From the NCBI RefSeq assembly GCF_017571475.1, contig NZ_JAGETW010000001.1, positions 496,001-560,000 of the forward strand: DNA of 64,000 nt. The letters are read 5' to 3'. The notes beneath the pieces were generated by a model. That model ran no database searches. It was not told the DNA's origin and saw nothing but the letters and a program-made list of their open reading frames with translations. Position 1 is the stretch's first letter, and every line of letters begins with the position of its first letter. Source of the stretch: Thiomicrorhabdus sp. 6S3-12. GTDB lineage: Bacteria > Pseudomonadota > Gammaproteobacteria > Thiomicrospirales > Thiomicrospiraceae. The translations under genes were made by a program, and so were the position numbers. This document shows positions 31,290 to 49,870 of this stretch, piece after piece.

Positions 31290-32582
31290 TTGAACGTCAA
31301 AACGGCTGAACGATCAAAAAGTAGAAAACCGCCCCAACAGTACTATTACCTGAGCCTTCTGGGCTTTCTGTTACTGCTTTGGGGCGCGACCCTTTTATGG
31401 TTTCATTTTGAGCTGCAGATGCATTTCTCGCATCTGGCCGTCGGCATTTCAATGGCCCTGTTTGCCGCGACCATTCCGGTCGTCTCCTGGCTGATCCCTT
31501 TTAATACTCTGCAGCAGCATCAGCGCCAATGTCAGCTGGTCTGGTTCTCTCTGCTGGCCTGGCTGCTGCTGTTGAACAGTCTGCTGCTGTACCACACCGG
31601 CGGAACGATCAACCCTCTGATCTATCTTCTGCTGGCACCTCTGGTTCTGGGCATGCTGATCCTGTCGACATCTTGGTTTATGAGTCTGGCGCTGCTGGCC
31701 TCGGCCTGTTATCTGTCACTGGGCTTTTTCTATGTTCCGATCATGTCCCTCAAGGTACAGAGCCTGCCGGCGTTTTTCGCCTGGTACCTGCACGGTTCCA
31801 TGCTGGCGTTCATTCTTCTGGTCATGCTGCTGGCACTGCTGATTTTCCCTTTAAGAAAACGGCTTGAAGCGCAACGCTCGGCGCTGTCGCAACAGCAGAA
31901 CCGCGCCCTGCAGAATGAATATCTGCTTTCGGTAGCCAGCCTTGCCTCGGCCTCCGTTCATCAGCTCAGTACGCCTCTGAACACGCTTTCGCTGCTACAG
32001 GATCTGTTGAAAAACGAAATTACCAGCGATCAGGGCAAAGCCTACCTGCAAACCGCCAATCAGCAGCTTTCGGTATGCATCAACGCTCTGCACAGTCTGC
32101 GCAATAAAGCGGAAGAGGTTTCCCAGCCGGCCAACGCGGGGATTGAAATCGGCGCGCTTCTGAAAGATCTGCGTCAGGAATTTGCCCTACTGCATCCGCA
32201 AAGCGAACTACAGACCTCCACCGACATCGCTTCAGGGCTGCTGTATGTCGATGCCGCCTTTAAACTGGCGATTATGAATCTGCTCGACAATGCCGCCCGC
32301 TACAGTCCCGACTTTATCCGCCTCAAGGTGTCAAAACACGCCGGAGGCTGGACGCTGCGTGTTGAAGATCAGGGAGGCGGCCTTGTGCAAAACGATCTCG
32401 AAACGCTTGGACAGGGATTAATGGAAGAGTACCACGGCACCGGTATGGGCGTATTCCTCAGCCGCATGATTATCGAGCGCTTCGGCGGTTCCCTGAATTT
32501 CCGCAACGGCGAGATTGAAGGGCAGCCGGGACTGATCGCCGAAGTATCGCTCCCGATTTCCGAACCGCATGACAAAGCATAA
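31290..32582 (+). CDS. regB: Redox sensor histidine kinase RegB/PrrB
   Basis: 430 residues with about six transmembrane helices in the first 190, carrying the RegB quinone-binding signature as GGTINPL (104-110; Phe is more usual at the last position). Phospho-His 224 sits in ASVHQLSTPLNTL; the ATPase domain has NLLDNAARYS and GTGMGVFLSRMI. Cys 263 in QQLSVCIN lies 39 residues after the His, matching the redox-active Cys of Rhodobacter RegB (His225/Cys265). Start is TTG 31290 with GAGGG upstream. It phosphorylates RegA encoded next, a global switch of respiration and carbon/nitrogen metabolism. Confidence 0.9.
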   Translation: MNVKTAERSKSRKPPQQYYYLSLLGFLLLLWGATLLWFHFELQMHFSHLAVGISMALFAATIPVVSWLIPFNTLQQHQRQCQLVWFSLLAWLLLLNSLLLYHTGGTINPLIYLLLAPLVLGMLILSTSWFMSLALLASACYLSLGFFYVPIMSLKVQSLPAFFAWYLHGSMLAFILLVMLLALLIFPLRKRLEAQRSALSQQQNRALQNEYLLSVASLASASVHQLSTPLNTLSLLQDLLKNEITSDQGKAYLQTANQQLSVCINALHSLRNKAEEVSQPANAGIEIGALLKDLRQEFALLHPQSELQTSTDIASGLLYVDAAFKLAIMNLLDNAARYSPDFIRLKVSKHAGGWTLRVEDQGGGLVQNDLETLGQGLMEEYHGTGMGVFLSRMIIERFGGSLNFRNGEIEGQPGLIAEVSLPISEPHDKA

Positions 32583-32593
32583 GGACGTTACCG

Positions 32594-33148
32594 ATGACAC
32601 AACTGAATAACCTGTTACTGGTAGACGACGATCTGACTTTTTTGAATATCCTGCAACAGGCATTCAAATACCGGGATATTGCCACGGAACAGGCGCAGAC
32701 CCCCGAGCAGGCCATACAGCTGATGCAACAGAAAGCGTTTGAATACGCCGTGATCGATCTCAATATTGACGGTCAGAGCGGACTAAACCTGCTCAGTGAA
32801 CTGCTCAGCCTGCAGCCGCAGTGCAAAATCCTGATTTTGACCGGCTATGCCAGCGTGGCGACCGCGGTTGAAGCGATGCGCCTGGGTGCCATCAACTACC
32901 TGTGCAAACCGGCCAATATCGACGACATCATTCAGGCGTTTTCCCCGCAAACCGGCCATCAAACACCCCCGCCGGCCAACGAACAGGAAGAAACTTTTCA
33001 GGCAATGTCGGTCAAGCGTCTTGAGTGGGAACACATCCAGAAAGTGCTGATGGAAAACGACGGCAATATCAGCGCTACCGCACAAGCGTTAAACATGCAC
33101 CGCCGGACGCTGCAAAGAAAATTACAGAAACGGCCGGTCGAAAAATAA
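32594..33148 (+). CDS. regA: Response regulator RegA/PrrA/ActR
   Basis: 184 residues: receiver with LLVDDDLTF, phospho-Asp 55 in AVIDLNIDGQSG, Thr (LILTGYAS) and Lys (YLCKPAN), then a Pro-rich linker and a Fis-type helix-turn-helix. The C-terminus (LEWEHIQKVLMEN, NMHRRTLQRKLQKRPV) is almost diagnostic of RegA. Eleven bases after regB, same operon. Confidence 0.95.
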   Translation: MTQLNNLLLVDDDLTFLNILQQAFKYRDIATEQAQTPEQAIQLMQQKAFEYAVIDLNIDGQSGLNLLSELLSLQPQCKILILTGYASVATAVEAMRLGAINYLCKPANIDDIIQAFSPQTGHQTPPPANEQEETFQAMSVKRLEWEHIQKVLMENDGNISATAQALNMHRRTLQRKLQKRPVEK

Positions 33149-33251
33149 ATAGGTGATTACCATCAATTTAACGCAATAACGACATATAAATTTCACCCTT
33201 ATTGCATTACTATTTTTCATGCTTTATTCCATTTTCACAAAGGACACACAA

Positions 33252-34184
33252 ATGAAACCGACTTCTCTCTTAGCGATCGCTGCCGGCTGCCTGATCGGAT
33301 GGCAAACCGCTTTCGCCGCAACGGTTGCCGAATCCGTTGAAATCAGCGACCCTTATGTCCGCATGGTACCGCCTACAGCTCCGGCCTCAGCCGCATTTAT
33401 GACCATTAAAAACACCGACGGCAAAGATCATTCTGTGGTTTCTGCCAAAGGTTACATCAACAAGATCACTGAGCTGCACACTCATATTCACGACAATGGC
33501 GTGATGCGTATGCGTCGGGTCGAAAAAATCGACCTGCCTGCAGGACAAACCACCGCGCTGCAACCGGGCGGACTGCATATTATGCTGATCAACCTTAATG
33601 AGCCGGTTAAAGACGGGCAAAAATATCAAATCGATCTGACTTTTGAAGACGGCTCGACGAAAACCGTCGAAGCACAGGGACGCCCGATCGTACCGCCACG
33701 AAACGGTATGGGAGCTGGCCCTAAAATGGGTACCGGCATGGGGCCGGGCATGAAATGCGGCGGCATGATGATGAAAGGACCGGGAGCCATGTCCGGCGCA
33801 CAACTTTCCAACGGTCGCAACAGCAACCCAATGCGGATGGTCATGCACGCGAACCCGGCTTTCCCGAATCTGACCGGTATTGCCGTTAAAAACGCCGCCG
33901 AACTGAATCTGAGCGCTGAGCAGGTATCTGAACTGAAAGGCTGGACTGCCAAACACGGTGACAAAATGCAGAAAATGTTCCAGCAGGTTGATGTTCTGGA
34001 AAAAGAGTTAATTCAAGATGCTTTGGCTGGACAGCCTAAAGCGGAATTAATGGCCAAATTCGAAAAAACGCTGGCCTTGCGCAAACAGATTGCGGAAACC
34101 AAAATCGATTGCCGCGACAATATGAAGAAAGTGCTGAGCGCCGAACAGTTCGACAAACTGGCGTCGATCTATCCGATGATGTAA
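33252..34184 (+). CDS. Secreted PCu(A)C copper chaperone fused to a Spy/CpxP-like domain
   Basis: 310 residues. ATG 33252 follows AAAGGA; an earlier frame start at 33219 has none. Signal peptide to about residue 23 (QTAFAA). Residues 28-145 are a PCu(A)C (DUF461) domain with the copper motif in exact spacing: His 76, X10, Met 87, X21, His 109-X-Met 111. A Met/Gly-rich linker follows (about 141-172, with KCGGMMMKG), then a helical Spy-like domain (about 210-310; LNLSAEQVSELK and LSAEQFDKL resemble LTxxQ repeats). PCu(A)C proteins deliver Cu(I) to cytochrome oxidase; Spy proteins are periplasmic chaperones. Directly behind RegBA, which suggests a tie to oxidase control. Confidence 0.85.
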   Translation: MKPTSLLAIAAGCLIGWQTAFAATVAESVEISDPYVRMVPPTAPASAAFMTIKNTDGKDHSVVSAKGYINKITELHTHIHDNGVMRMRRVEKIDLPAGQTTALQPGGLHIMLINLNEPVKDGQKYQIDLTFEDGSTKTVEAQGRPIVPPRNGMGAGPKMGTGMGPGMKCGGMMMKGPGAMSGAQLSNGRNSNPMRMVMHANPAFPNLTGIAVKNAAELNLSAEQVSELKGWTAKHGDKMQKMFQQVDVLEKELIQDALAGQPKAELMAKFEKTLALRKQIAETKIDCRDNMKKVLSAEQFDKLASIYPMM

Positions 34185-35613: not shown

Positions 35614-35949
35614 TTATTTCTTGGTGGAATCCTCCGGAACATAAATCATGCTGCCGTCTTCCAAGCGGTAAGCCACACCCGCTTTAGACCCTTTACCTTC
35701 ACCCATCTGGCCGGTCGACTTATACTCTTTAAGCTCATCGCCCTCTTTGACCAGAATTTCCATATTCGGCTGCCCGGCATTTTTAATGACCATGACATCC
35801 TCGGCACTGTTAAACGGATTGATCGGGTTGCTCATTACGATAATCAGCAACACCGCGATCACGACCAGAAACAGATCCACCATATTGACCACGCTCAGAA
35901 TCGGATCGTCTTCGTCTTCTTCAATAATATTCAAATCAATCTGACTCAT
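35614..35949 (-). CDS. DUF2149 protein, ExbD-like partner of the adjacent channel (HmuV-like)
   Basis: 111 residues: an acidic cytoplasmic N-terminus (IIEEDEDDPILSVVNMVD), one transmembrane helix (about 22-42) and a periplasmic domain. Topology and the Asp at the start of the helix recall ExbD/TolR, and DUF2149 proteins accompany MotA/TolQ/ExbB proteins in hmu-type loci (HmuV). It starts 9 bases after the channel gene. Expected role: stator-type proton channel subunit that energises the TonB-dependent receptor encoded 8 kb away. CAGGG lies upstream of the ATG. Confidence 0.75.
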   Translation of the reverse strand: MSQIDLNIIEEDEDDPILSVVNMVDLFLVVIAVLLIIVMSNPINPFNSAEDVMVIKNAGQPNMEILVKEGDELKEYKSTGQMGEGKGSKAGVAYRLEDGSMIYVPEDSTKK

Positions 35950-35958
35950 CGCCCTGTC

Positions 35959-36471
35959 TCAAGCCGCTTTTAACTTAGGTTCTGCTTCAGCCTCTTTCGC
36001 CTTGGCTTTCAGCAATGCCTTGAGTTCTTCCAACAACCAGCGACGACGCACCGATAGCGTCATAAAGGTCATCGAAGCCGACAAGAGCGCGATAATAACT
36101 GCGGCAAAAGCGACCGTTAGTTGGCTGGCCACTTCCTGAAAGTTACCGTTGGCGACCGCCATAAGCGCCGGCCCCATCGGAATCATGGTCGCTACCAGCC
36201 CAAGCATCGGCGCAATCCGGCTAACCAGACGCAAAGGCTCGATCTGTCTCAGCAATTGAAGCTCGACTTCCTGTTGATCGGCCTGAGGATTTTTCGCCCA
36301 AAATTGTTGTAAAGGCTGATGGGCATCCTTGCCCAAAGAGCGCATGAGCCACTCCCAGCCAAATCTTCCTAATTCGTAGAACGCAAACGCAAACATCAGT
36401 GCCAGAATAATCAGCACCGGCATTAAAAACAGACCGGCGATCTCCGCCATCGTCATTTCGATAAAATTCAT
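35959..36471 (-). CDS. MotA/TolQ/ExbB-family proton channel (HmuU-like)
   Basis: 170 residues with three transmembrane helices (about 8-35, 90-112, 125-150). RIAPMLGLVATMIPMGPAL is the conserved MotA/TolQ/ExbB pore helix pattern. The start is ATG 36471 behind AGGAGA; a longer frame reaching 36588 would run into the promoter palindrome and has no binding site. Paired with the DUF2149 gene; together they match hmuU and hmuV of Bacteroidetes haem-uptake operons. Transcribed from a promoter that mirrors the receptor promoter. Confidence 0.85.
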   Translation of the reverse strand: MNFIEMTMAEIAGLFLMPVLIILALMFAFAFYELGRFGWEWLMRSLGKDAHQPLQQFWAKNPQADQQEVELQLLRQIEPLRLVSRIAPMLGLVATMIPMGPALMAVANGNFQEVASQLTVAFAAVIIALLSASMTFMTLSVRRRWLLEELKALLKAKAKEAEAEPKLKAA

Positions 36472-36551
36472 AGTTTCTCCTGAATACGCTCTTTTGATCA
36501 GTTCACACCTCTGCTGAGCAAAGGTCATCATGGCGCTTTTATATGCGAAAA

Positions 36552-36597
36552 ATTTTAGAGGGCGGGAGACAAATAGACAATGCGACAAATTGTCGCA
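36552..36597 (-). promoter_or_regulatory. Operator-promoter A: 17-bp palindrome plus -35/-10
   Basis: Perfect palindrome TGCGACAAATTGTCGCA (36581-36597; 8-bp arms around one base) abuts a -35 hexamer (minus strand TTGTCT, 36580-36575), 17-base spacer and TAAAAT -10 (36557-36552). The start of the channel gene is 80 bases downstream of the -10. The same arrangement, base for base in spacing, precedes the TonB receptor (45352-45397). The palindrome centre lies near -44, a position used by class II activators, but repression is also possible. Confidence 0.75.
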
Positions 36598-36718
36598 CTC
36601 CAGACAATTACGCTCGGTTGCAGGCAGTGATTTGTATTTTTACAAAAGCAGGAGTTTTAGGAGCACAACCCCACAATAGAGTTAATACAGGGAGTTTAGA
36701 AGTTTCGGAACCGCAAAT

Positions 36719-36756
36719 AAAAAAGGGATTAGCGCCTTATTCTGACACTAATCCCC
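36719..36756 (-). terminator. Terminator of the 101-residue Cys protein gene
   Basis: GGGATTAG and CTAATCCC separated by 15 bases; on the minus strand the stem is followed by TTTTTTA. About 60 bases past the stop at 36818. Confidence 0.7.
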
Positions 36757-36817
36757 ACTTTGGAAGTATTATGAATTTCTCCCTGCACCATTCCCGCGAG
36801 GAAACGCACGAAAATCC

Positions 36818-37123
36818 TTAATATTTCGGATAGATCGTTAACAGCTGCTCAACTTCTTCACGACAGCAACCCAGGTCAAATGCCAACTTAGCCAGTTGCG
36901 ATGCACGTGACTGCAGGTTTTCCATCGTTTCACCCTTTTCAATCGCTTCCTGCAACCAGGAAGAAAGCTTGGATAATTCGCGAATCTTGGATTCCATCTC
37001 CTCCGCCGGAAGACCGCAACTGCAAAGGTTTTCTAAATTAATATCAAAACGTCGTAAGGCTTCATCCGAACTGATATTGGTATCCTTAACGATATTTTTA
37101 AAATGGCTGCTTCCCGGCATCAT
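36818..37123 (-). CDS. Hypothetical 101-residue protein with Cys pairs
   Basis: Soluble, helical protein starting MMPGSSHFKNIVKD, with CSCG around residue 35 and a CC pair (LGCCREEVEQ) near the C-terminus; four Cys in 101 residues could bind metal or a cofactor. I chose ATG 37123 because AGGTG lies 7 bases upstream; a GTG at 37132 is less likely. It lies inside the hmu-like locus, between the channel genes and the chelatase, but has its own terminator. Family not recognised; a role in the locus is only inferred from position. Confidence 0.6.
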   Translation of the reverse strand: MMPGSSHFKNIVKDTNISSDEALRRFDINLENLCSCGLPAEEMESKIRELSKLSSWLQEAIEKGETMENLQSRASQLAKLAFDLGCCREEVEQLLTIYPKY

Positions 37124-37357
37124 GCAAATCACCTACTCTCTGGAATATTTAGGAAGAGTTATTTTAATCAACGTTCGACAAGCGATTCATAACAACAATT
37201 TATTGAAATCATTAGATTACAAGGAACCAATCTATAAATAGCAATGTGTTTACATCCCATCGCTTATAAGCTTCTTTGACCTTTTCTTTTCTTGTCCAAA
37301 GAAAAGGTCAAAAAGAAAAGACACCCTCTACCGTTCGATTAAGACTGGCTAGCGTTC

Positions 37358-37423
37358 AATTTTGCGCGGCTTCAACTCCCTCGCTTTGCTCGGTCAGACA
37401 GCCACCGCCGCTCCTGCAAAATT
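37358..37423 (+). repeat. Left 66-bp arm
   Basis: Starts AATTTTGCGCGGCTTCAACT and ends CTCCTGCAAAATT; exact reverse complement of 37597-37662. Confidence 0.95.
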
Positions 37424-37596
37424 ATCACTAAGCCACTCTAAATCTCAGCTCTAAAGGGAACCCATTTATTTGGCATTGTTTTCGTCGAAAGAACGAAGAT
37501 TCTCTATCGCCTCAAAATAGTAGAAAAGGTGTTATACGCAAGCATAGCCTAAAGACAATAATCCCCTTTGGAGTGCGCTTAGGCTGAGTCAGCGAA

Positions 37597-37662
37597 AATT
37601 TTGCAGGAGCGGCGGTGGCTGTCTGACCGAGCAAAGCGAGGGAGTTGAAGCCGCGCAAAATT
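37597..37662 (-). repeat. Right 66-bp arm
   Basis: Starts AATTTTGCAGGAGCGGCGGT; exact reverse complement of the left arm, 173 bases away. Confidence 0.95.
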
Positions 37663-37842
37663 AAGCGCTACTCAGCCTTAGTAAGCGGAACGGGGTGTCC
37701 TTTTTTGCCTACTTTGTTGGACAAGCAACAAAGTAGGGGGAAGCCTTTAGATGAAAACAAGGCAAAGTGAAATTTTAAAAAGGCTTCTCAATTAAAAAAC
37801 CAAATTTAATTTTACTCTGACCCCAATTATTAATTTGATGAT

Positions 37843-38619
37843 ATGTTCAAACATGGATGGCAAAAGCTACATAACCAGAATGAGAACCGAATTAAATTTG
37901 GTCACAATGACTTTTTTGGTATGCAGAACTTTTTATTTTTTTCGGTTGATAACAAAGCAATTTCATACGATTCAAAAAAATATAGCTTTGAAGAAAGCAA
38001 GCTGAACTTGATTGATAGCTGGAACAAGATGTATCAACTGTTATTGGTTCAAGCGTTTGAAGCTTTTTCAGAGTTCATGAAAAGTTTGTATTTAATACTA
38101 TTAGATTTAGGATTTGAATTTAAGCAACCATGCTTAAAAGGTGGTTCATCTCTTCCATGTGATAAAAATTTCAAATTAACAGTTACTAACATTCGTACTG
38201 AATTTTTTAGGTTATATCCGACTCTTGAAGTTTATGACACCAAAAATCAACTTGGTGCCAATTTTAAGTTTATGCTGCCCTTTATTGAAAAACTAAGACA
38301 TATCATTGCGCACTCACATGGTGAGTTCAAAAATTCAGAAAAGTTCATTCGTGAGGTTCTAAATGTGAATAGGCTTTTTAATAATGGAAAATATGACCAA
38401 GAGTTTGACCAATACTTTGATTCATTTACCAGGAATAAAAATGGGATCGTTGAAATTGCCATGATGCCAATACCTCAAGAGCCGAATGGTGCTTTTGAAG
38501 TTTGGACAAATCGATTTGATATGCTGAATAATTATTTAATGGCTTATACCGAACTCATGCAAAGAGTGTTTACACACGAAATTGACAAGAAAATCAAATC
38601 AGGCAGCACTGCGGATTAA
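37843..38619 (+). CDS. AT-rich orphan gene, possible HEPN-like protein
   Basis: 258 residues, rich in Phe, Lys and Asn, with clearly lower GC than its neighbours, next to the inverted-repeat element: signs of horizontal gain. Largely alpha-helical. KLRHIIAHSHGEF (residues about 147-159) contains Rx4H, the signature of HEPN nucleases, flanked by helices (NSWNKMYQLLLVQAFEAF-like before it). HEPN proteins often serve in toxin or phage-defence systems. The rest of the fold is not verifiable by eye, and the binding site is poor. No antitoxin-like partner is adjacent. The upstream TTTTACTCTGACCCCAATTA resembles flanks of dispersed proteobacterial repeats. Confidence 0.65.
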   Translation: MFKHGWQKLHNQNENRIKFGHNDFFGMQNFLFFSVDNKAISYDSKKYSFEESKLNLIDSWNKMYQLLLVQAFEAFSEFMKSLYLILLDLGFEFKQPCLKGGSSLPCDKNFKLTVTNIRTEFFRLYPTLEVYDTKNQLGANFKFMLPFIEKLRHIIAHSHGEFKNSEKFIREVLNVNRLFNNGKYDQEFDQYFDSFTRNKNGIVEIAMMPIPQEPNGAFEVWTNRFDMLNNYLMAYTELMQRVFTHEIDKKIKSGSTAD

Positions 38620-38707
38620 CGATTACCAACACAATCAAGTGCCTGGAAACGAGGTAAAAAGCAATGGAGCCAGCAACCTTACTACTCCAAACTCTAATAA
38701 TCAAAAC

Positions 38708-38735
38708 AAAAAACGCCCATTTAAGGGCGTTTTAT
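38708..38735. terminator. Bidirectional terminator
   Basis: AAACGCCC / GGGCGTTT stem with A tract on one side and T tract on the other, between the convergent AT-rich gene and the CobN-like gene. Confidence 0.8.
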
Positions 38736-38755
38736 TAGTTAGAAAAAGCTTTGTT

Positions 38756-41700
38756 TTACTTTCTTAAATAGATTTGACGCAAAGCCCCTGCCGCGAGCAG
38801 AGCGGCGAGTAACAACCACCATTTCGGTTGGTCGATTGGCTGTTGCTCTTCGGGCTGTTGTTCTTGCATCACTTGCCCTTGCACGGTTTCCAGTTCTTCG
38901 CTTTGCTCGGTCTGTTCCGAGTTTTCAGACTCTGGCTGATCCATACTTTCAGCAGGCGTAGGTTCGGCGGCAGAAGTGGCCATATCCGGTGCCGGAGCGG
39001 CGCTCAGACCATAACCCGCCGCCAATTCGGCAACATAGGCTTTAAAAGTCTGGTTATCGGTATGCACATCATACTTCTCGGCCATTTCCTGATAGACCTG
39101 CACCAGTTCCTTTTTGGTCTCCTCACTCGCTTTCCAATAGTCCTTGCGAATCGCTTCCAGCATACGCTCGGCAATTTGCGCCATGGCAGTTGGATTGGAC
39201 TTCTCGAACCACTCTTTCATATCCAGTTCGTATTTGTCCTTGATATAAACTTCGTGGAACTCCTGCCACTGATCGTCGCGCACCACATTGCGGTCCATGA
39301 CCTGCCAGCCCCAGAAGTTGTTGATGGTATTCAACATCTGCAAAGTTCCGGCATAGCCCTCTTTCTGCATCTCCTTGACCCAGTTCGGGTGCTGATATAC
39401 GGCACGCAATTCGGTCGCCAGGAAACGCTCGGCAGTTTGCAGCTTGGCCTTTTTTGGGTCGCGCATATTTGAGATATACAACTGCGGCGCTTCGCCTTCC
39501 AGGTGTTGCAGAGCCAGTGAAATCCCGCCGAGATATTCAAACGGATGATCGGTGTCCAACAACCCACGCAGGTTTGAGGAACGTGAGAAGACCGCCGCCG
39601 AGGTTCCTTTTAACTGCTCGGCATAGACATTGACCGGCTTGCCGTCTTTAGTGGTCAGCTTTCTGCTCCACTGCGAGGTATCCGGACCGTAAGCCCAAGA
39701 CATGCGCGACAGATACAGCTCAGCCAGTTTGCCGTCGTCTTCTTCCCACTTGTCCGAAGCCAGCGTGGCATCCGGCAATTTGGTGCCGTAGTCGCCGCTT
39801 TCGGTGCCGAAGACACGCGTTAGCGCGAAGTTCTTGGCCGCTTTGGCTTCTACGCCCTGCTCGATCAGAGCCTTTTCAATACGCAAGGTATTGGCACGGA
39901 TAAAGTTATCCTCTTCACCTTCATTAAGACTGGCAAGCATGACAATCGCTTCGTTAAAGCGCTCCATCACATTCGGGAACTGGTCGCGATACAGACCCGT
40001 CAGCGAGATGACCGTGTCGATACGCGGACGCCCCAACTCTTTGAGCGGAATCACTTCCAGACCGGTAACGCGCCCGCCTCGATCCCAGATCGGCTTGACG
40101 CCCATCGCATAGAATACCTGTGCTTCCAGCATCCCAAGATGACGCAGAGTTTCGGTACTCCACATCGAGAATGTCAGCTTTTTCGGGAATTCGCCGTGTG
40201 TCGCCTGATGACTTTCAATCAGTTGCTGCATCGCTTGAACACCTGCTTCATAGGCGGCTTTGGTCGGAATACGCGACGGATCGAAACCGTACATATTGCG
40301 CCCGGTCGGAATCGCATCCGGATTCCGGATCGGATCGCCTCCATAAGACGGATCAACCCATTTCGCAGCCAATCCTGCCAAGATTCCATCCGTTTCCGAC
40401 ACGGCACGCATATTACGCGCATGTTTAATACCCTGCTTGACCGCCGCAACCAATTCCGGCTTAGCGGCATCAACGGAACTTAAAGACTGCTCGTCAATAA
40501 TATGCGATCGCACAAATTTGAAAGGCGCCGTCTCTTTCAGCAACTTATAGTCGGTTCGAAACAGTTGGCGACTGTTTTCGACACCAAGCGGCTTCATCAG
40601 GTCATCACCGAGCATCAGCATAATATTCAACGCCAGATGATCCTGCTCGGCGGTTTCGCCGAACGTATGCAACCCTAAAGGCTGCATCGCCGAACCGAGA
40701 TCTTCCAGATAGTCTTCGATATCGCGCAGGAAGCTGTCGAAGTTCGCGTGCAGATCGGCCACCTTCCAACCCATATCTTCCGGAATCTTCATTTTCACCG
40801 CCTGTTCGATAATCAGGTCTTTTGCGTTGGATTTGACCAGACCCTCGTCAAGCGAGATATATTCGCGGATAGCGTCGTTAATGGCGACAAAATCGTCCGA
40901 CAGGCCTGCCGGCGAGAAAGGCGGTACCTGATAGCTAATGATAACGCCGCGCCCGCGACGTTTCACGTGAAGCGCTTCGCCGATATTATCAACGATATAC
41001 GGATAAACCACCGGCGTATTGCCGACCGCCAGATTCGGATAATCGTAAGCCCACAGACCGCGTTCTTTGCCCGGATGCCATTCCTGAGTCCCGTGGGTTC
41101 CGAAATGGATAATCGCGTCGGTGCCGTACACTTCGCGCAGCCACAGATAGGCCGCCGCGTAATAATGATTCATCGGTTTTTTAGTGTCGTGGAAAAGATC
41201 CTTATCCTGTTCGGCGGTCGAGCCGCCGCGGTTCGGCTGCGGCATAATAATCAGGTTGCCCAGTTTCAGACGCGGAATGACAAACCCTTTCTGCCCCTGA
41301 TAATCGACCACCCAGCCGTTTGTCGCGGCATCGCCCCAATGGCCGTTCATATCATCCTGAATCGACTGCGGCAGCGTCGCAAACCATTGGCGATAGGTTT
41401 CCAGCGGCATAAAGTCCCACAGCTCGGTTTTCATCAGATTTTCGACTTCGTTGGGTCTATAGGCCGGACGCAACATGGTGGCCACCGCATCAATCATTTC
41501 CTGCTCACCGACATTTTCCAGCGCATAACCTTGCGCCTTAAGATCGGCAACCAGCTTCTCGATCGAGCGCGGTACATTCATATTCGAAGCGCCCTGATTT
41601 TTCTCGCCCGGAGGATGATTCCAGAACAGCAGCGCCAGCTTTTTATCCTTATTGGCTTTGCGTTGTAGCTTGGCCAGATTAATCGCCTTGCCGATCAGCA

Positions 41701-43018
41701 AGTCCATCTGTTCCAGCAACGGAATCATTTCACCGTCCGGATTGACCGTCAACACCACCGGATCCTGAATCCCGATATATTCGGCATTGGTCAGGGTAAA
41801 CGGCAGTCGGAAAGAGCTGACACCGGCCAAATCCTGCATATAGACTTCGCGACCGCCGTCGCGGTAGTGCAGAATATTGATGACCGGAATCCCCTGCGCC
41901 TGATAGCGCAACTTGCGTCCTTCGACATCACCACCAAGGAAGGTATTGACCAGCATCACCTGCGGCAAGACCTTGCCCCGCCAGGTAATCAGCGGCTCGT
42001 TGAATTGGTACGGACGCCCTGTTTTCGGATTCGGGAAAGGATTATCATCAGCGGCAGGCTTGGCTGGAGCGCCCCAGCGCGCCGCAGCAGGGTTACCGGA
42101 AGCATCGGCCGGACGGCCAGATGGACGACCTTCCGCTTTAGAGGAAGTCTGCGGCCGGCCGTAACCGGCCGGCTTGTCTTGCGCCGACTTTAACGCCGCT
42201 TCGCGCTCGACGGACTGCTGCGATTTAAAGGTGTTCTGAGTCACACGGGCGGCTCGATAGAAAAACAGCGGCATGGCACCACGCTTTTCGATTTCGGCAA
42301 TGGTTTCGTCCAGATGACGCGTCTGACCGTCGGCGATATAGCTCGACGTAGTTTCCATGGCAATCACCAGTCCCTCGGTACCGTCTTTGCCCGAGCGCTG
42401 ATTCCACCACTGAATATATGTATCCAGATCCGCGAAGACCTGTTGCTGGTACGCAGGATGGTAAATACCGCCGCTGGGCATCTCAATCGGCAAAGGTACG
42501 GCGTCGAGATCCGTACCGTTGATCATTGCCGCCGCATAGTCAAACAGCAGACGATGGTTGTCACTCATACCGCCCAGATAGTAACCGTACACCTGCTGAC
42601 CGATTTCGGTCGGCAGGTTGACCGTTTTCAGGCGAACCGGACGGCTCATACGATTGATATGCACAACCGGCACCTGCAAAGCGCGCAGACTGTCACCGGC
42701 GATCGAATCCACTTTCGCCTGATCGTCGGTACGCGGCGCATCGACAATTACCAGTCCGGCATTTTGCAACGCCTTGTGCACACCATCCTTACCGCCGGAA
42801 CCGTCTTTGGCATCCACCTGCACCCAGTTCAGTTGCACGCCCTGTTGTGCGGCCGCTTCGCTCAGCAGCTTAAACTTTTTGCTGAGCACAAAATCGGTGG
42901 AAACAATCGCCACCTTGGGCTCTTTTTTATCGAGGCTTTCCGACGCAAAAACGGGCGCCGTCAAAAATGACAGACACCCGCCGATCAGAAACACCCAGTT
43001 CACCAAGGGTTGCATCAC
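38756..43018 (-). CDS. Periplasmic membrane-anchored CobN-like chelatase (HmuS-like)
   Basis: 1420 residues of the CobN/magnesium-chelatase H-subunit family. Unlike cytoplasmic CobN it has a signal peptide (MQPLVNWVFLIGGCLSF..VFASE) and, after a Glu/Gln-rich tail, a C-terminal helix (WWLLLAALLAAGALRQIYLRK), so the catalytic body faces the periplasm. Core blocks are present: LLFWNHPPGEKNQGASNMNVP, AIIHFGTHGTQEWHPGKE, YPYIVDNIGE. A Pro/Gly linker with GRP repeats (about 285-335) is an extra. The architecture and neighbours match HmuS, reported in Bacteroidetes to act on haem. No CobS/CobT partners occur here. GTG 43018 has the best spacing to AAGGAG; ATG 43015 is the alternative. Stop of the receptor gene is 12 bases upstream. 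Confidence 0.88.
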   Translation of the reverse strand: MMQPLVNWVFLIGGCLSFLTAPVFASESLDKKEPKVAIVSTDFVLSKKFKLLSEAAAQQGVQLNWVQVDAKDGSGGKDGVHKALQNAGLVIVDAPRTDDQAKVDSIAGDSLRALQVPVVHINRMSRPVRLKTVNLPTEIGQQVYGYYLGGMSDNHRLLFDYAAAMINGTDLDAVPLPIEMPSGGIYHPAYQQQVFADLDTYIQWWNQRSGKDGTEGLVIAMETTSSYIADGQTRHLDETIAEIEKRGAMPLFFYRAARVTQNTFKSQQSVEREAALKSAQDKPAGYGRPQTSSKAEGRPSGRPADASGNPAAARWGAPAKPAADDNPFPNPKTGRPYQFNEPLITWRGKVLPQVMLVNTFLGGDVEGRKLRYQAQGIPVINILHYRDGGREVYMQDLAGVSSFRLPFTLTNAEYIGIQDPVVLTVNPDGEMIPLLEQMDLLIGKAINLAKLQRKANKDKKLALLFWNHPPGEKNQGASNMNVPRSIEKLVADLKAQGYALENVGEQEMIDAVATMLRPAYRPNEVENLMKTELWDFMPLETYRQWFATLPQSIQDDMNGHWGDAATNGWVVDYQGQKGFVIPRLKLGNLIIMPQPNRGGSTAEQDKDLFHDTKKPMNHYYAAAYLWLREVYGTDAIIHFGTHGTQEWHPGKERGLWAYDYPNLAVGNTPVVYPYIVDNIGEALHVKRRGRGVIISYQVPPFSPAGLSDDFVAINDAIREYISLDEGLVKSNAKDLIIEQAVKMKIPEDMGWKVADLHANFDSFLRDIEDYLEDLGSAMQPLGLHTFGETAEQDHLALNIMLMLGDDLMKPLGVENSRQLFRTDYKLLKETAPFKFVRSHIIDEQSLSSVDAAKPELVAAVKQGIKHARNMRAVSETDGILAGLAAKWVDPSYGGDPIRNPDAIPTGRNMYGFDPSRIPTKAAYEAGVQAMQQLIESHQATHGEFPKKLTFSMWSTETLRHLGMLEAQVFYAMGVKPIWDRGGRVTGLEVIPLKELGRPRIDTVISLTGLYRDQFPNVMERFNEAIVMLASLNEGEEDNFIRANTLRIEKALIEQGVEAKAAKNFALTRVFGTESGDYGTKLPDATLASDKWEEDDGKLAELYLSRMSWAYGPDTSQWSRKLTTKDGKPVNVYAEQLKGTSAAVFSRSSNLRGLLDTDHPFEYLGGISLALQHLEGEAPQLYISNMRDPKKAKLQTAERFLATELRAVYQHPNWVKEMQKEGYAGTLQMLNTINNFWGWQVMDRNVVRDDQWQEFHEVYIKDKYELDMKEWFEKSNPTAMAQIAERMLEAIRKDYWKASEETKKELVQVYQEMAEKYDVHTDNQTFKAYVAELAAGYGLSAAPAPDMATSAAEPTPAESMDQPESENSEQTEQSEELETVQGQVMQEQQPEEQQPIDQPKWWLLLAALLAAGALRQIYLRK

Positions 43019-43030
43019 TCTACTCTCTCC

Positions 43031-45307
43031 TTAGAATTTCACTTTCAGACCTGCCATCCAGACACGGCCCGGATCGACGTTGATCGACAGGTCTTCGGCG
43101 TCATACACGCCGTCGGAATTGCTGTCGTAGGTACCGCGAACAATCGAGTAGAACTGATCATTAAACACATTGTCTACTTTCAGGAACAGGGTCAGCAGCC
43201 CTTGCGTTCCGCCGACAACCTGCGCTTTGGTCTGATATTCCAGACCTAAATTCAGCAGTGTACGCGCCGGCATCTTTTCCTGATTGATCTCATCGGCATA
43301 ACTCTCGCCGCGATAATCGATTTCAGTGGTAAAGGTTACTTTGCTTGTCGGATACCAGTTAATGCGCAAGTTCGCCATATGTTGCGGAGTACGCGGCACA
43401 TAATTACCGCTGTTGTCGTAAGGCTTAAAGTAAACACAGTCGTCCGGGGTACAGGTCTGCGTCCCGGCGCGCGTGGTATAGGTGCCGGTCGTCAACTCCT
43501 CTTCCGAATTCACCACCACACCATATGGATTACCCAAAGCCAGATAGAAATCGTCATAGCTGCCGAACTTGCTGATCAGGTAGGTGTAGGCGAAATCAAA
43601 CGAGAAATTGTGTTTTTTCTCGGTTTGCAGCGCCAGTTCAAAACCTTTGGAAGTCGTTTGCCCGATATTGTCATAGTAGGACTCGACATCGTCGAGCTGA
43701 TCGACATTCGAGTTGACGTACTGGCCGGTGGAATTGGTAATGAAATCCCGTCGGTCGATATAGAACACGGAACTGTTCATATGGGTATTCCAACCGAACA
43801 GATTCAGCTCGGAGCGCACACCCAACTCATAGTTAAAGGTCGTTTCAGGCTCCAAATCGGCATTGGTACTAAGTTCGCTCAGGCTCGGCGCACGGAAACC
43901 GGTGGAAACCGCGCCATACAGAGAGGTTTTTTCGGACAGATTCTGATCCGCACCGAAGCGCCAGGAGTGAACATTGAACTCATTACTGTCATAGCTGTCT
44001 TCCAGACGATCATGTCCGTCCAGCTCGATGCGGTCAAAACGGTAGTTCCCGGTCAGCGTCGTGCTTTCGGTCGCTCTAAACTTCGCCTCGCCGTAGACCG
44101 CTTTAGTGATCTCTTCGCGGTAAGAGTCCGACTTTATCGTCCCGGCGGTAATCGTTTCGCCGCGCGAATAGGTACGATAGTCCTCTTTCACCGTGGTCTG
44201 CTCATCGAAGGTATTTTTCTTCAGTTCAACCCCACCCATTAAGGCAAATTCGCCGAACGAATCGCGCAGTTCCAGTTTCAGACCGCGCTGCACCTGCTCG
44301 TAATCGTTGAGATTGGCATACATATCGACCTGATCGTCACCGACCGGATTGCCGTCGCCGTCGTATTTAATCGGTGCCGACCAGAAATCGGTTATGTCTT
44401 TGTACTGATAGGCGACCGCCATAAAGTTACCGCTGTCCGAAAAGTCGTTCGAATAGGTCAGATTCAGTCGCGACAGATCGACATTGAACATTCGGGTGTA
44501 GCCGCGTCCGGCCTCTTCCCCTTCCGGATCCTCTTCGGCGGCGGTGACCCCGCGTACAGAGCCGTCTCGATCACGGAAGCGCTGCGCATCTTCAAAACCG
44601 AACGTCAACTCGCTATGATCGTTCAGGTAATATTCCAGCGCACCGGAGACCGCTTCAGCATCGCGTTGCGACAAAGCATAGAAGCCGTCGTTATGACGAT
44701 CGGTTACCTGCACATGACCGGCAAAATCCTCTTCGGCAACGCCCGCTTTGACCAGAGTACGCGTATAACCGTAAGAGCCGAGATCCGCTTCAAGGGTCAC
44801 GCCGGCATGCGCAGCGCCGCGCTTGGTGGTAATAATCACCGCACCGGCCAGCGCATCTTCACCGAACAGATAGGAAGCGCCCCCTTTGACGACGCGGATC
44901 GATTCGATATTATCCAGATCGATATTCACCTTACCGGTACGCTCGAAAACCGGAACACCGTCGATCACAATCGCCACACCCGGCTTCTCGCCCATATAAC
45001 GCTGATTATCCACACCGCGGATTTTGATCTTGATGCCATCGCCTTCACCGGCCAGATCAGCGGTAACTCCGGGAATGGAACGCAGTACCTCGATAATATT
45101 GGTCGCGTGCTTTGCTTCTACCGCTTCACCGCTGATCACCGTCGTACTGGCCGGAATATCGGCATCCGATTCAAATCGGTCTTCGATGGTCGAAGAAGAA
45201 ATCGTTACTTTGGAAAGTTCGCTGCTGTCGTCGGCGTAACCGAATTGAGTGAAGCTCAGCAATAAAGCCGAAATTAATGCATTGTAGTGAAAAGGTTTAG
45301 GATGCAT
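43031..45307 (-). CDS. TonB-dependent outer-membrane receptor (HmuR/BtuB-like)
   Basis: 758 residues. Signal peptide ends near FGYADD; a TonB box-like KVTISSS follows; plug domain with STTVISGEAVEA, VLRSIPGV, IKIRGVDNQRYM, VVIDGVPV and IRVVKGGASYLFGEDALAGAVIITTK; then a 22-strand barrel ending MAGLKVKF with terminal Phe. It imports a haem-like, corrinoid or metal ligand using TonB energy. First gene of the unit with the CobN-like chelatase. AGAGGCGG precedes the ATG. The promoter carries the same palindrome as the channel genes. No TonB gene is present in the window. Confidence 0.92.
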   Translation of the reverse strand: MHPKPFHYNALISALLLSFTQFGYADDSSELSKVTISSSTIEDRFESDADIPASTTVISGEAVEAKHATNIIEVLRSIPGVTADLAGEGDGIKIKIRGVDNQRYMGEKPGVAIVIDGVPVFERTGKVNIDLDNIESIRVVKGGASYLFGEDALAGAVIITTKRGAAHAGVTLEADLGSYGYTRTLVKAGVAEEDFAGHVQVTDRHNDGFYALSQRDAEAVSGALEYYLNDHSELTFGFEDAQRFRDRDGSVRGVTAAEEDPEGEEAGRGYTRMFNVDLSRLNLTYSNDFSDSGNFMAVAYQYKDITDFWSAPIKYDGDGNPVGDDQVDMYANLNDYEQVQRGLKLELRDSFGEFALMGGVELKKNTFDEQTTVKEDYRTYSRGETITAGTIKSDSYREEITKAVYGEAKFRATESTTLTGNYRFDRIELDGHDRLEDSYDSNEFNVHSWRFGADQNLSEKTSLYGAVSTGFRAPSLSELSTNADLEPETTFNYELGVRSELNLFGWNTHMNSSVFYIDRRDFITNSTGQYVNSNVDQLDDVESYYDNIGQTTSKGFELALQTEKKHNFSFDFAYTYLISKFGSYDDFYLALGNPYGVVVNSEEELTTGTYTTRAGTQTCTPDDCVYFKPYDNSGNYVPRTPQHMANLRINWYPTSKVTFTTEIDYRGESYADEINQEKMPARTLLNLGLEYQTKAQVVGGTQGLLTLFLKVDNVFNDQFYSIVRGTYDSNSDGVYDAEDLSINVDPGRVWMAGLKVKF

Positions 45308-45351
45308 CGCCGCCTCTGGTCTTCTGTTCTAATGATTTGAATTAGCGCAAA

Positions 45352-45397
45352 ATTTTAGGGGCAAGCCAGCAACGAAACAATGCGACAAATTGTCGCA
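45352..45397 (-). promoter_or_regulatory. Operator-promoter B: same palindrome plus -35/-10
   Basis: TGCGACAAATTGTCGCA at 45381-45397, -35 (minus strand TTGTTT, 45380-45375), 17-base spacer, -10 TAAAAT (45357-45352), followed on the minus strand by TTTGCGC. Spacer sequence differs from site A while palindrome, -10 and distances are the same, which points to selection on the regulatory elements. Confidence 0.8.
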
Positions 45398-48706: not shown

Positions 48707-49870
48707 ATGCCCGACTACTCAACGCCCGGCGTTTACATCGCGGAAAACTTAACAGCCCCACCTCCAATAGAAGCGACGTCCACCACGATCGCCGGTTTTG
48801 TCGGCGTAGCGGAAACGAGCTACCGGCTCAATCAACCGACGAAAATTCACAGTTGGGCCGAATACACGCGTCATTTCGGACGCTACTCTCAAACTGCACC
48901 TTATCTGGCTCCTGCGGTATGCAGCTTTTTTAAAAATGGCGGCCAAGCCTGCTATATCGTCAATGTCGCCGATCAGAGCGACTCGTCCCTGATCGGATTC
49001 GACTCAACTGATGGAAGCGCAAGCGGCCTGCAAAGCCTGAAAGCCGTCGACGAAATCAGTACGCTCTGTATTCCCGGTGCAACCTCTCTGAACGTACAAC
49101 TGGCGATGATTACACACTGTGAATCGCAGGACGACCGCTTCTGTATCCTCGATTCGCAAGAGGCCGCGATACTTAACGATATCCAGCAACAACGCACGCT
49201 TCTACATTCCGACCGAGGATTTGCCGGCCTCTACTATCCGTGGATTGAAGTCGCGGTCGAAAAACAGTCGGCCACAGGCGAACTGCAGTTGGAAAACCGT
49301 TTTATTCCGCCCAGCGGCGCCATCGCCGGCATTTACGCCTTGAATGACTTGCAGCGCGGCGTGCACAAAGCCCCTGCTAATATGGCGATAAGGGATGCTA
49401 TCGGCCTCGAACGCAACATATCCCAATCGGAGCAAAGTCTCCTTAACCCGCAAGGTATTAATTGCATCAGACTGATTGACAGCCAGGGAATTCGTGTCTG
49501 GGGAGCCAGAACGCTGGCGGATACCTCAGACGAATTGAAATATGTTCCCGTGCGCCGTCTGCTGCTTTTTCTGCAAGAGTCAATTCAAAAATCCATCCAA
49601 TGGTCCGTGTTCGAACCGAATGACGAACCGCTTTGGGCGAACATTCGCCTCTCTGTCGAGAATTTCCTGCTACAAAACTGGCGTGACGGCGCCTTTCAGG
49701 GAAGTCGTCCGGACGAAGCGTTTTTTGTGCGCTGCGACAGAAGCGGCATGACGCCTGAGCAGATCAGGGCAGGCATTATGATCGTTACCATCGGCATCGC
49801 AGCGATCAAACCGGCCGAATTCATTGTCTTTAGAATTGCTCAGAAAACCGGCGATGCCGACATCACCTAA
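48707..49870 (+). CDS. Orphan contractile tail sheath protein
   Basis: 387 residues related to phage/CIS tail sheath proteins. N-terminus YSTPGVYIAENLTAPPPI is the sheath strand-exchange arm; then TTIAGFVGVAE and FFKNGGQACYIVNV; the C-terminal sheath domain contains INCIRLIDSQGIRVWGART, VPVRRLLLFLQESIQ and NWRDGAFQGSRPDEAFFVRCD. CAGGAGGAAGC upstream of the ATG. No tube, baseplate, spike, ATPase or structural phage genes are nearby, so it is either a relic or a recruited sheath. Followed by a secreted coiled-coil protein with 26 bases between. Confidence 0.85.
   Translation: MPDYSTPGVYIAENLTAPPPIEATSTTIAGFVGVAETSYRLNQPTKIHSWAEYTRHFGRYSQTAPYLAPAVCSFFKNGGQACYIVNVADQSDSSLIGFDSTDGSASGLQSLKAVDEISTLCIPGATSLNVQLAMITHCESQDDRFCILDSQEAAILNDIQQQRTLLHSDRGFAGLYYPWIEVAVEKQSATGELQLENRFIPPSGAIAGIYALNDLQRGVHKAPANMAIRDAIGLERNISQSEQSLLNPQGINCIRLIDSQGIRVWGARTLADTSDELKYVPVRRLLLFLQESIQKSIQWSVFEPNDEPLWANIRLSVENFLLQNWRDGAFQGSRPDEAFFVRCDRSGMTPEQIRAGIMIVTIGIAAIKPAEFIVFRIAQKTGDADIT

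Follow-up and report, generated by a model that had tools for sequence, protein, structure and literature searches.

A candidate copper-scavenging cassette with an HmuS-like chelatase homologue in Thiomicrorhabdus sp. 6S3-12

Introduction

What does a CobN-like protein do next to a TonB-dependent receptor? The question is raised by a four-gene cassette in a 64,000-nucleotide (nt) stretch from the genome of the sulfur-oxidising bacterium Thiomicrorhabdus sp. 6S3-12 (NZ_JAGETW010000001.1:496001-560000; genome size 2.55 Mb), hereafter the window, to which all coordinates refer. A preliminary description of this DNA had listed a TonB receptor, a CobN-like, an ExbB-like and a DUF2149 protein; all four genes were found again on the minus strand where it had placed them. 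Judging from sequence comparison, it is well supported that the cassette belongs to a copper-acquisition regulon. We give about even chances to the reading that it encodes a system which imports a copper complex to scavenge the metal, with an HmuS-like de-chelatase at its core and under RegB/RegA-like control. It is probably copper, not iron, that would be stripped from the imported complex, because the genes are wired into a copper-scavenging programme. The features on which this reading rests are the following.

43031..45307, minus strand: TonB-dependent receptor, first gene of the cassette (Pfam Plug and barrel)
38756..43018, minus strand: HmuS-like class I chelatase homologue (CobN-like), 1420 amino acids (aa) (Pfam CobN, 949 bits)
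35959..36471, minus strand: ExbB/TolQ/MotA-like channel protein, 170 aa (Pfam MotA_ExbB, 27.7 bits, scored on a longer open reading frame (ORF) with a TTG start, to 36588)
35614..35949, minus strand: DUF2149 protein (Pfam DUF2149, 100 bits)
45381..45397: operator TGCGACAAATTGTCGCA, a 17-bp palindrome 73 bp upstream of the start of the TonB receptor
36581..36597: identical copy of the operator, upstream of exbB-DUF2149
31290..32582, plus strand: RegB-like sensor kinase, partner of the regulator (Pfam HATPase_c)
32594..33148, plus strand: RegA/PrrA-type response regulator, proposed binder of the operator (Pfam receiver and Fis helix-turn-helix)
33219..34184, plus strand: PCu(A)C copper chaperone (Pfam PCuAC, 123 bits), adjoining the regulator pair

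The operator and its regulator

When up to one mismatch is allowed, the genome has a single additional site; it carries one mismatch and lies 62 bp upstream of an OprC-like receptor gene. Among the 62 genomes of the family, 50 such sites occur in 24 genomes, whereas a reversed-pattern control yielded 3. An ortholog of the RegA-like regulator (>130 bits) is likewise present in 24 of the 62; 23 genomes have both (Fisher p 9e-15, in a test that ignores shared ancestry). The genome with only the operator is G005, where the site lies inside an ORF, and the one with only the regulator is G027. Of the nine genomes whose cassette is full-length, eight have the operator upstream of the cassette receptor, G027 being the exception, and homologues of the sensor kinase adjoin operators in G029 and G031.

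The closest PDB relatives of the regulator are the response regulator 3rqi (172 bits) and, in its DNA-binding part, PrrA (1umq). Its partner carries a GGTINPL stretch and an HQLSTPLNTL H-box, from which we take it to be RegB-like. The operator layout, GCGAC-N5-GTCGC, fits the RegR box GNGRC-N5-GNCGC, and direct binding by the RegA-like regulator is predicted. The RegR box GNGRCRTTNNGNCGC has half-sites and a 5-bp spacing equal to those of the operator, and the source that gives it calls the sites of RegA, PrrA and RegR degenerate and dissimilar (PMC5506826). The pair thus shares the sensor/regulator architecture of RegB/RegA, PrrBA and RegSR, and its operator the half-sites and spacing of the RegR box; unlike the redox systems of this type as they are described, the genes marked by the operator here largely serve copper acquisition (PMC5506826, PMC9147068).

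Two other modes of control were considered and rejected. An Rfam scan of the window returned two tRNAs only, neither a cobalamin riboswitch nor another RNA element. Zur, suggested as the binder by the neighbourhood of one related cassette (in G049, see below), was set aside because the genome has a single FUR-family match (140.7 bits) and the operator tracks the RegA-like regulator. The end coordinate given in the preliminary description, 45397, is that of the palindrome, which it did not mention.

Genes marked by the operator

A labelled gene lies within 350 bp of 45 of the 50 sites and is lacking at five; since the reference proteins were taken from the same neighbourhoods, this count is a description and not a test. 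The genes adjacent to operators include those for OprC-like receptors, the copper-binding protein MbnP (217 and 177 bits; cut-off 140), MbnH (468 bits; cut-off 363, with a second one in G031 falling below it at 129.5), receptor-SCO-PCuAC operons (SCO1/SenC 128-146 bits, PCuAC 123-125 bits), PCuAC and the sensor/regulator pair. In G025 the PCuAC gene is divergent from the cassette receptor and the operator lies between both.

OprC is reported to import ionic copper, with a copper site made of CxxxM and HxM (PMC8610252). Nine of the ten OprC-like receptors have both CPNHM (a CxxxM motif) and HxM, the tenth (G004) having HxM only, and six further operator-linked receptors carry CPNRM and HxM. Taken together, both motifs occur in 15 of the 21 receptors outside the cassette, next to one with CPNRM only, which is cut by a contig end, and one with HxM only. 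For the OprC-like receptor of the window genome the best PDB match is OprC itself, with the Cys and the first Met aligned. The copper character thus appears to hold largely, for much though not all of the regulon.

Some neighbours of these genes deserve mention in their own right. The PCuAC protein (33219-34184) has a long C-terminal extension, the first part of which is rich in Met and Gly. Two paired membrane proteins, of 466 and 409 aa, have no Pfam match (L067, 2318-4951), and relatives of the first stand beside an operator in G002, G004 and G023. A receptor and a Fer4_5 iron-sulfur membrane protein are found under the same operator in L077 (1473-4961); Fer4_5-like genes lie near cassettes also in L099, L100 and L132.

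The CobN-like protein

At its N-terminus the CobN-like protein has a hydrophobic stretch and an AxA-like site (MMQPLVNWVFLIGGCLSFLTAPVFA), and at its C-terminus a hydrophobic helix. Both features, already named in the preliminary description, were seen by eye and in hydropathy, where a value of at least 1.8 was reached at the N-terminus in 72 of 84 rows (the protein of the window included), at the C-terminus in 66 of 84 and in any internal segment in one of 84. For the window protein itself the N-terminus scores 2.02 and the C-terminus 1.79, slightly below the cut-off. Apparently, then, the protein is exported and anchored rather than cytoplasmic.

Its kinship also points to HmuS. In a PDB search HmuS (9d26) was the best match with 415 bits, ahead of CobN (7c6o, 351) and ChlH (348). 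With a profile of the C-terminal third, HmuS scored 240 bits in an alignment reaching to the membrane helix, while the top CobN and ChlH matches scored 153 and 130. An unrooted tree was built from 302 C-terminal columns of 89 rows, after three frame-broken CobN rows (L127, L131, L139) had been dropped. In this tree HmuS and the proteobacterial proteins split from CobN and ChlH at a 99/91 branch; this value is to be read with a long-branch caveat, because the HmuS, CobN and ChlH branches are very long (1.6 to 7.2) and a single HmuS was used. The kinship on the HmuS side proposed in the preliminary description was borne out.

The catalytic residues agree as well: H642 matches HmuS H538, and H1158/E1161 match H1209/E1212. 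The HFG(T/A)HG motif is present as HFGTHG at 638-643, with His 638 and 642 in 85 of 85 covering rows. The counterpart of LSLDHxxEFMGG in HmuS is LLDTDHPFEYLGG, with His and Glu retained and different flanks; these second His and Glu residues are found in 50 of 50 rows of the His type defined below. Two features that the HmuS authors regard as defining the family were not seen. The Met-rich insertion of domain IV is absent, 229 HmuS residues (700-929) standing against about 65 here (805-870), among which no stretch is rich in Met. The haem ligands of site 1, Met79-Gly80 and His254-Gly-Arg, were not found; in their place the alignment, which is of uncertain register at 95 bits, has DAPR and NTFLGGDVEGR. 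The protein is, as the comparison supports, an HmuS-like chelatase homologue and not the CobN of cobalamin synthesis.

In G031 a second, tandem CobN-like copy (L033, 6357-10289; 50% identity) has Cys in place of the catalytic His (ACPFEYVGG). This copy has its own operator copy upstream and a different TonB receptor.

Distribution and active-site types

CobN-like matches were found in ten of the 62 family genomes, as nine full-length loci and as fragments in G034 (46% and 28% identity). Beyond the family, the best 80 of 246 relatives from named genomes were kept, so that clade frequencies are not population frequencies. In a tblastn comparison of these 80 loci, which include some truncated at contig ends, ExbB was found in 71, DUF2149 in 70 and the receptor of the window type in 52. 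The cassette is common in Proteobacteria. The preliminary description had treated its occurrence outside Bacteroidetes as unusual; this was not upheld and the occurrence is not new, because the cassette is widespread and the P. aeruginosa operon PA1922-PA1925 has been published.

The 85 non-reference rows fall into types according to positions 1158/1161: His/Glu in 50, Asp/Gln, as in true CobN, in 34, and Cys/Glu in one, the second copy of G031; the Asp/Gln rows form a sister group. Two neighbouring positions follow the same division. All 50 His-type rows have R/K/H at position 1151, where all 34 Asp-type rows have Y/F. At position 1155, 48 of the 50 His-type rows have Asp and every one of the 34 Asp-type rows has Thr/Ser.

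The upstream boxes could be compared in the 64 of 99 loci that have a usable upstream region (35 were dropped), with thresholds (2, 3 and 5 mismatches) picked after a first look at the operator results and against random background windows that include coding DNA. Read with these limits, a Fur-like box precedes the receptor in 15 of 27 Asp-type loci but in one of 28 of the His type (background 7/289). For the operator the counts are seven of 28 in the His type, with two Thiomicrorhabdus loci among the seven, and one of 27 in the Asp type (background 0/289). No scanned box at all is seen in 21 of the 26 His-type loci outside Thiomicrorhabdus.

Cassettes with the operator occur in Nitrosomonas europaea (L104, L127) and N. 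eutropha (L116). Ammonia oxidation in Nitrosomonas depends on copper, and the genus would gain a candidate uptake system for chelated copper. In a cassette of an uncultured member of the Burkholderiales (L135), MbnP- and MbnH-like genes follow directly. One CobN-like gene of N. europaea is frame-broken (L127, 8920-11650), and breaks are also present in L131 and L139.

Proposed function

Under limitation of copper, or of copper-dependent respiration, the RegB/RegA-like pair would act on the 17-bp operator and presumably activate it. The cassette would then be switched on jointly with OprC-type receptors for ionic copper and with periplasmic copper carriers. The TonB receptor would carry the cargo, presumably a copper complex, across the outer membrane, with energy from the ExbB-like/DUF2149 pair dedicated to it. 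In the periplasm the anchored CobN-like enzyme would grip the complex between H642 and H1158 and probably remove the metal, which would pass to periplasmic carriers such as PCuAC. Because of the enzyme family, the ligand may be a tetrapyrrole, for instance in copper coproporphyrin III; that coproporphyrin III might serve as a chalkophore has been proposed (Anttila 2011, as cited in the review PMC7558416).

Several observations weigh against this proposal. Unlike the OprC/NosA relatives in the regulon, most of which have CxxxM and HxM (PMC8610252), the cassette's own TonB receptor has neither motif, and neither is found in four of the 21 receptors outside the cassette. Some operator sites precede genes that do not fit copper, namely those of an ECF sigma factor, of membrane proteins without an assigned family, or of threonine dehydratases, the last divergent from receptors; RegA-type regulators may exert a general control of respiration. 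G027, one of the cassette genomes, lacks the operator (its best match has 6 mismatches), and its regulator is diverged. As to the enzyme, the profile of the N-terminal third ranks ChlH (116 bits) above HmuS (95) and CobN (74), and HmuS W1202 corresponds to R1151. Finally, the neighbourhood of the G049 cassette would suit zinc: divergent from it (L036, 13559-15848) lie genes for a COG0523 GTPase, a hexapeptide protein that by eye is gamma-carbonic-anhydrase-like, and a Zur-like FUR protein.

Alternative explanations

The alternative that survives best, although we consider it unlikely, is that the chelatase-like protein acts without demetallation, as a periplasmic carrier or docking protein from which the metallophore is handed on intact. 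In the literature consulted, HmuS is the only member of the group with reported de-chelation, and its head and neck are reported to resemble binding proteins. Against this reading, HFGTHG and the second His and Glu are kept in every covering row of the His type.

Rather unlikely in our view is haem-iron acquisition as in the hmu system of the Bacteroidota, with a receptor that imports haem and an enzyme that removes Fe(II). The closest solved relative is indeed the haem de-chelatase HmuS, the catalytic His pair is retained, and the regulon includes genes for the di-haem protein MbnH and, next to an operator of G002, for cytochrome oxidase subunit I, CtaA and a UbiA-family (CtaB-like) protein. 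Yet a Fur-like box at threshold, present at 15 of 27 Asp-type loci, is lacking at 27 of 28 His-type loci; the protein is without the Met-rich insertion of HmuS, the search for Met79 and His254-Gly-Arg was negative, and the regulon is rich in copper genes. Of the periplasmic extraction of a metal or haem suggested in the preliminary description, the exported HmuS-like homologue thus stands, while haem as the substrate is poorly supported and the regulon points to copper. A His in the FRAP...NADL stretch is important in haem receptors. The stretch of the cassette receptor has none, a weak point given that 12 of the 15 Asp-type receptors with the stretch also lack it; as the His is missing from most Fur-associated receptors that have the stretch, this test was dropped as uninformative.

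Zinc acquisition, as proposed for an operon of the same kind in P. aeruginosa that is Zur-regulated (PMC4542158), is improbable for the window. Within the Pseudomonadaceae a Zur-box-like site (at most 3 mismatches) lies up to 4.5 kb upstream of CobN in 12 of 13 loci; the His motif is present in 12 of these 13, the active-site motif of L218 not being found by pattern. A stricter 400-bp test places a Zur-like box at three of five evaluable His-type loci of the family, and the Zur-like gene adjoining the G049 cassette points the same way. Against zinc, no Zur-box-like site was seen in any of the 28 named His-type loci. In the window genome only the one FUR-family match exists, the operator is not a Zur box and tracks the RegA-like regulator, and the marked genes are copper markers.

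Very unlikely is a role in cobalt or cobamide handling as a true or repurposed cobaltochelatase subunit: NCBIfam labels the protein cobaltochelatase CobN (1664 bits), but it has an export-type N-terminus and an anchor, falls outside the CobN branch with His/Glu in place of Asp/Gln, and has no riboswitch in the window, while the genome, where cobS/cobT had been named beforehand as partners that would speak for cobalamin synthesis, has no match to CobT and matches the CobS model at 46.9 and 32.1 bits only (cut-off 558.55).

Comparison with known systems

According to the preliminary description, HmuU is the ExbB-like and HmuV the DUF2149 component of the Bacteroidetes operon. HmuS belongs to the hmuYRSTUV system of the Bacteroidota, for which conversion of haem to protoporphyrin IX and Fe(II) is reported (PMC12583661). 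The copper-scavenging system proposed here resembles it in the TonB receptor, the class I chelatase homologue with a membrane segment at each end, the two small energising proteins, the retained equivalents of His538, His1209 and Glu1212, and the side of the tree. It differs from that six-gene operon in having four genes, with no hmuY- or hmuT-like neighbour seen, and from HmuS in the absence of the Met-rich insertion, the Met79/His254 site, which was not found, the Arg for W1202 and the copper-linked regulation. HmuY was not found in the genome, a weak negative because the same search was silent in all 14 controls; HmuT was not searched for.

PA1922-PA1925 of P. aeruginosa is described as one Zur-regulated operon for a receptor, a CobN-like, an ExbD-like and a hypothetical protein (PMC4542158). 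It is the same kind of cassette, regulated by metal starvation, but there the control is by Zur and zinc, whereas the operator of the window differs from a Zur box. The His-type proteins of the Pseudomonadaceae score about 1001-1083 bits against the genus profile, and PA1923 presumably belongs to this group. BtuS1 and BtuS2 of Bacteroides fragilis, CobN-like proteins reported to be needed for obtaining iron from haem, differ from the present system in serving iron and haem, and in belonging to the Bacteroidota (PMC6460266).

Significance

A wider idea, which we regard as doubtful but possible, is that HmuS represents one branch of a family of metal-selective periplasmic de-chelatases, in which one receptor-chelatase-ExbB-DUF2149 machinery serves several metals: an iron branch (Fur, Asp/Gln), a zinc branch (Zur, His/Glu) and a copper branch (RegA-like, His/Glu and Arg), to which the window would belong, with imported porphyrins such as coproporphyrin III as metallophore. 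If this were true, the window would encode the first de-chelatase for copper and the import arm of a chalkophore pathway of the porphyrin type. The data yield a testable rule, in that the upstream site (Fur, Zur or RegA-like operator) and positions 1151, 1155, 1158 and 1161 should predict the metal extracted by each cassette.

Apart from methanobactin and yersiniabactin, which a review names as the two well-characterised cases (PMC7558416), there is little knowledge of chelated-copper uptake by Gram-negative bacteria. The role of CobN-like proteins outside cobalamin synthesis is stated to be unclear (PMC12583661, discussion; PMC4542158). Among the literature matches listed, which mostly do not cover subscription papers, no title or abstract start ties a CobN- or HmuS-like protein to copper uptake.

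Other features of the locus

The receptor is far from solved receptors, its top PDB matches being YncD (phmmer, 72.8 bits) and PqqU. Only one CobN-family protein was found in the whole genome. The ExbB-like ORF starts with ATG at 36471, the alternative TTG ORF overlapping the operator, and the position of exbB after CobN is repeated in relatives. By eye, the DUF2149 protein has an ExbD-like anatomy, with an N-terminal hydrophobic segment and a soluble part after it; its identity is 85-99% in five relatives from the genus, those whose retrieved DNA spans the gene, and 61% in G034. Two more features lie between CobN and exbB.

37288..38619: insert that splits the cassette, with an inverted-repeat element and an ORF of 258 aa that has no Pfam match
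36818..37132, minus strand: 104-aa Cys protein without Pfam match, not part of the core

The insert is no part of the system: the four cassette genes are contiguous in G027, G026 and G049, and interrupted by it in the window. It contains a 102-nt inverted repeat (37340-37441 and 37579-37680, 88% complementary, 137 nt spacing) flanked by outer arms at 37288 and 37702, and resembles a miniature inverted-repeat transposable element (MITE) or a repetitive extragenic palindromic (REP) element. Elsewhere in the window, the protein encoded at 48707-49870 has the look of a phage or injection-system tail sheath, an impression from the sequence for which no search was made.

The Cys protein, given as 101 residues long in the preliminary description and suggested there as a possible local replacement for HmuY or HmuT, is not needed as such a hemophore substitute and was rejected in this role: it is absent from the cassettes of G026 and G049 and from 80 of 80 named loci. 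Weaker paralogues occur in many family genomes. Close homologues (at least 66%) are found only in seven of the nine cassette genomes and in G041; in four of these eight genomes they stand beside exbB, in the other four elsewhere and without operator. Because these homologues track the cassette within part of the genus, the protein may have an accessory role in the system.

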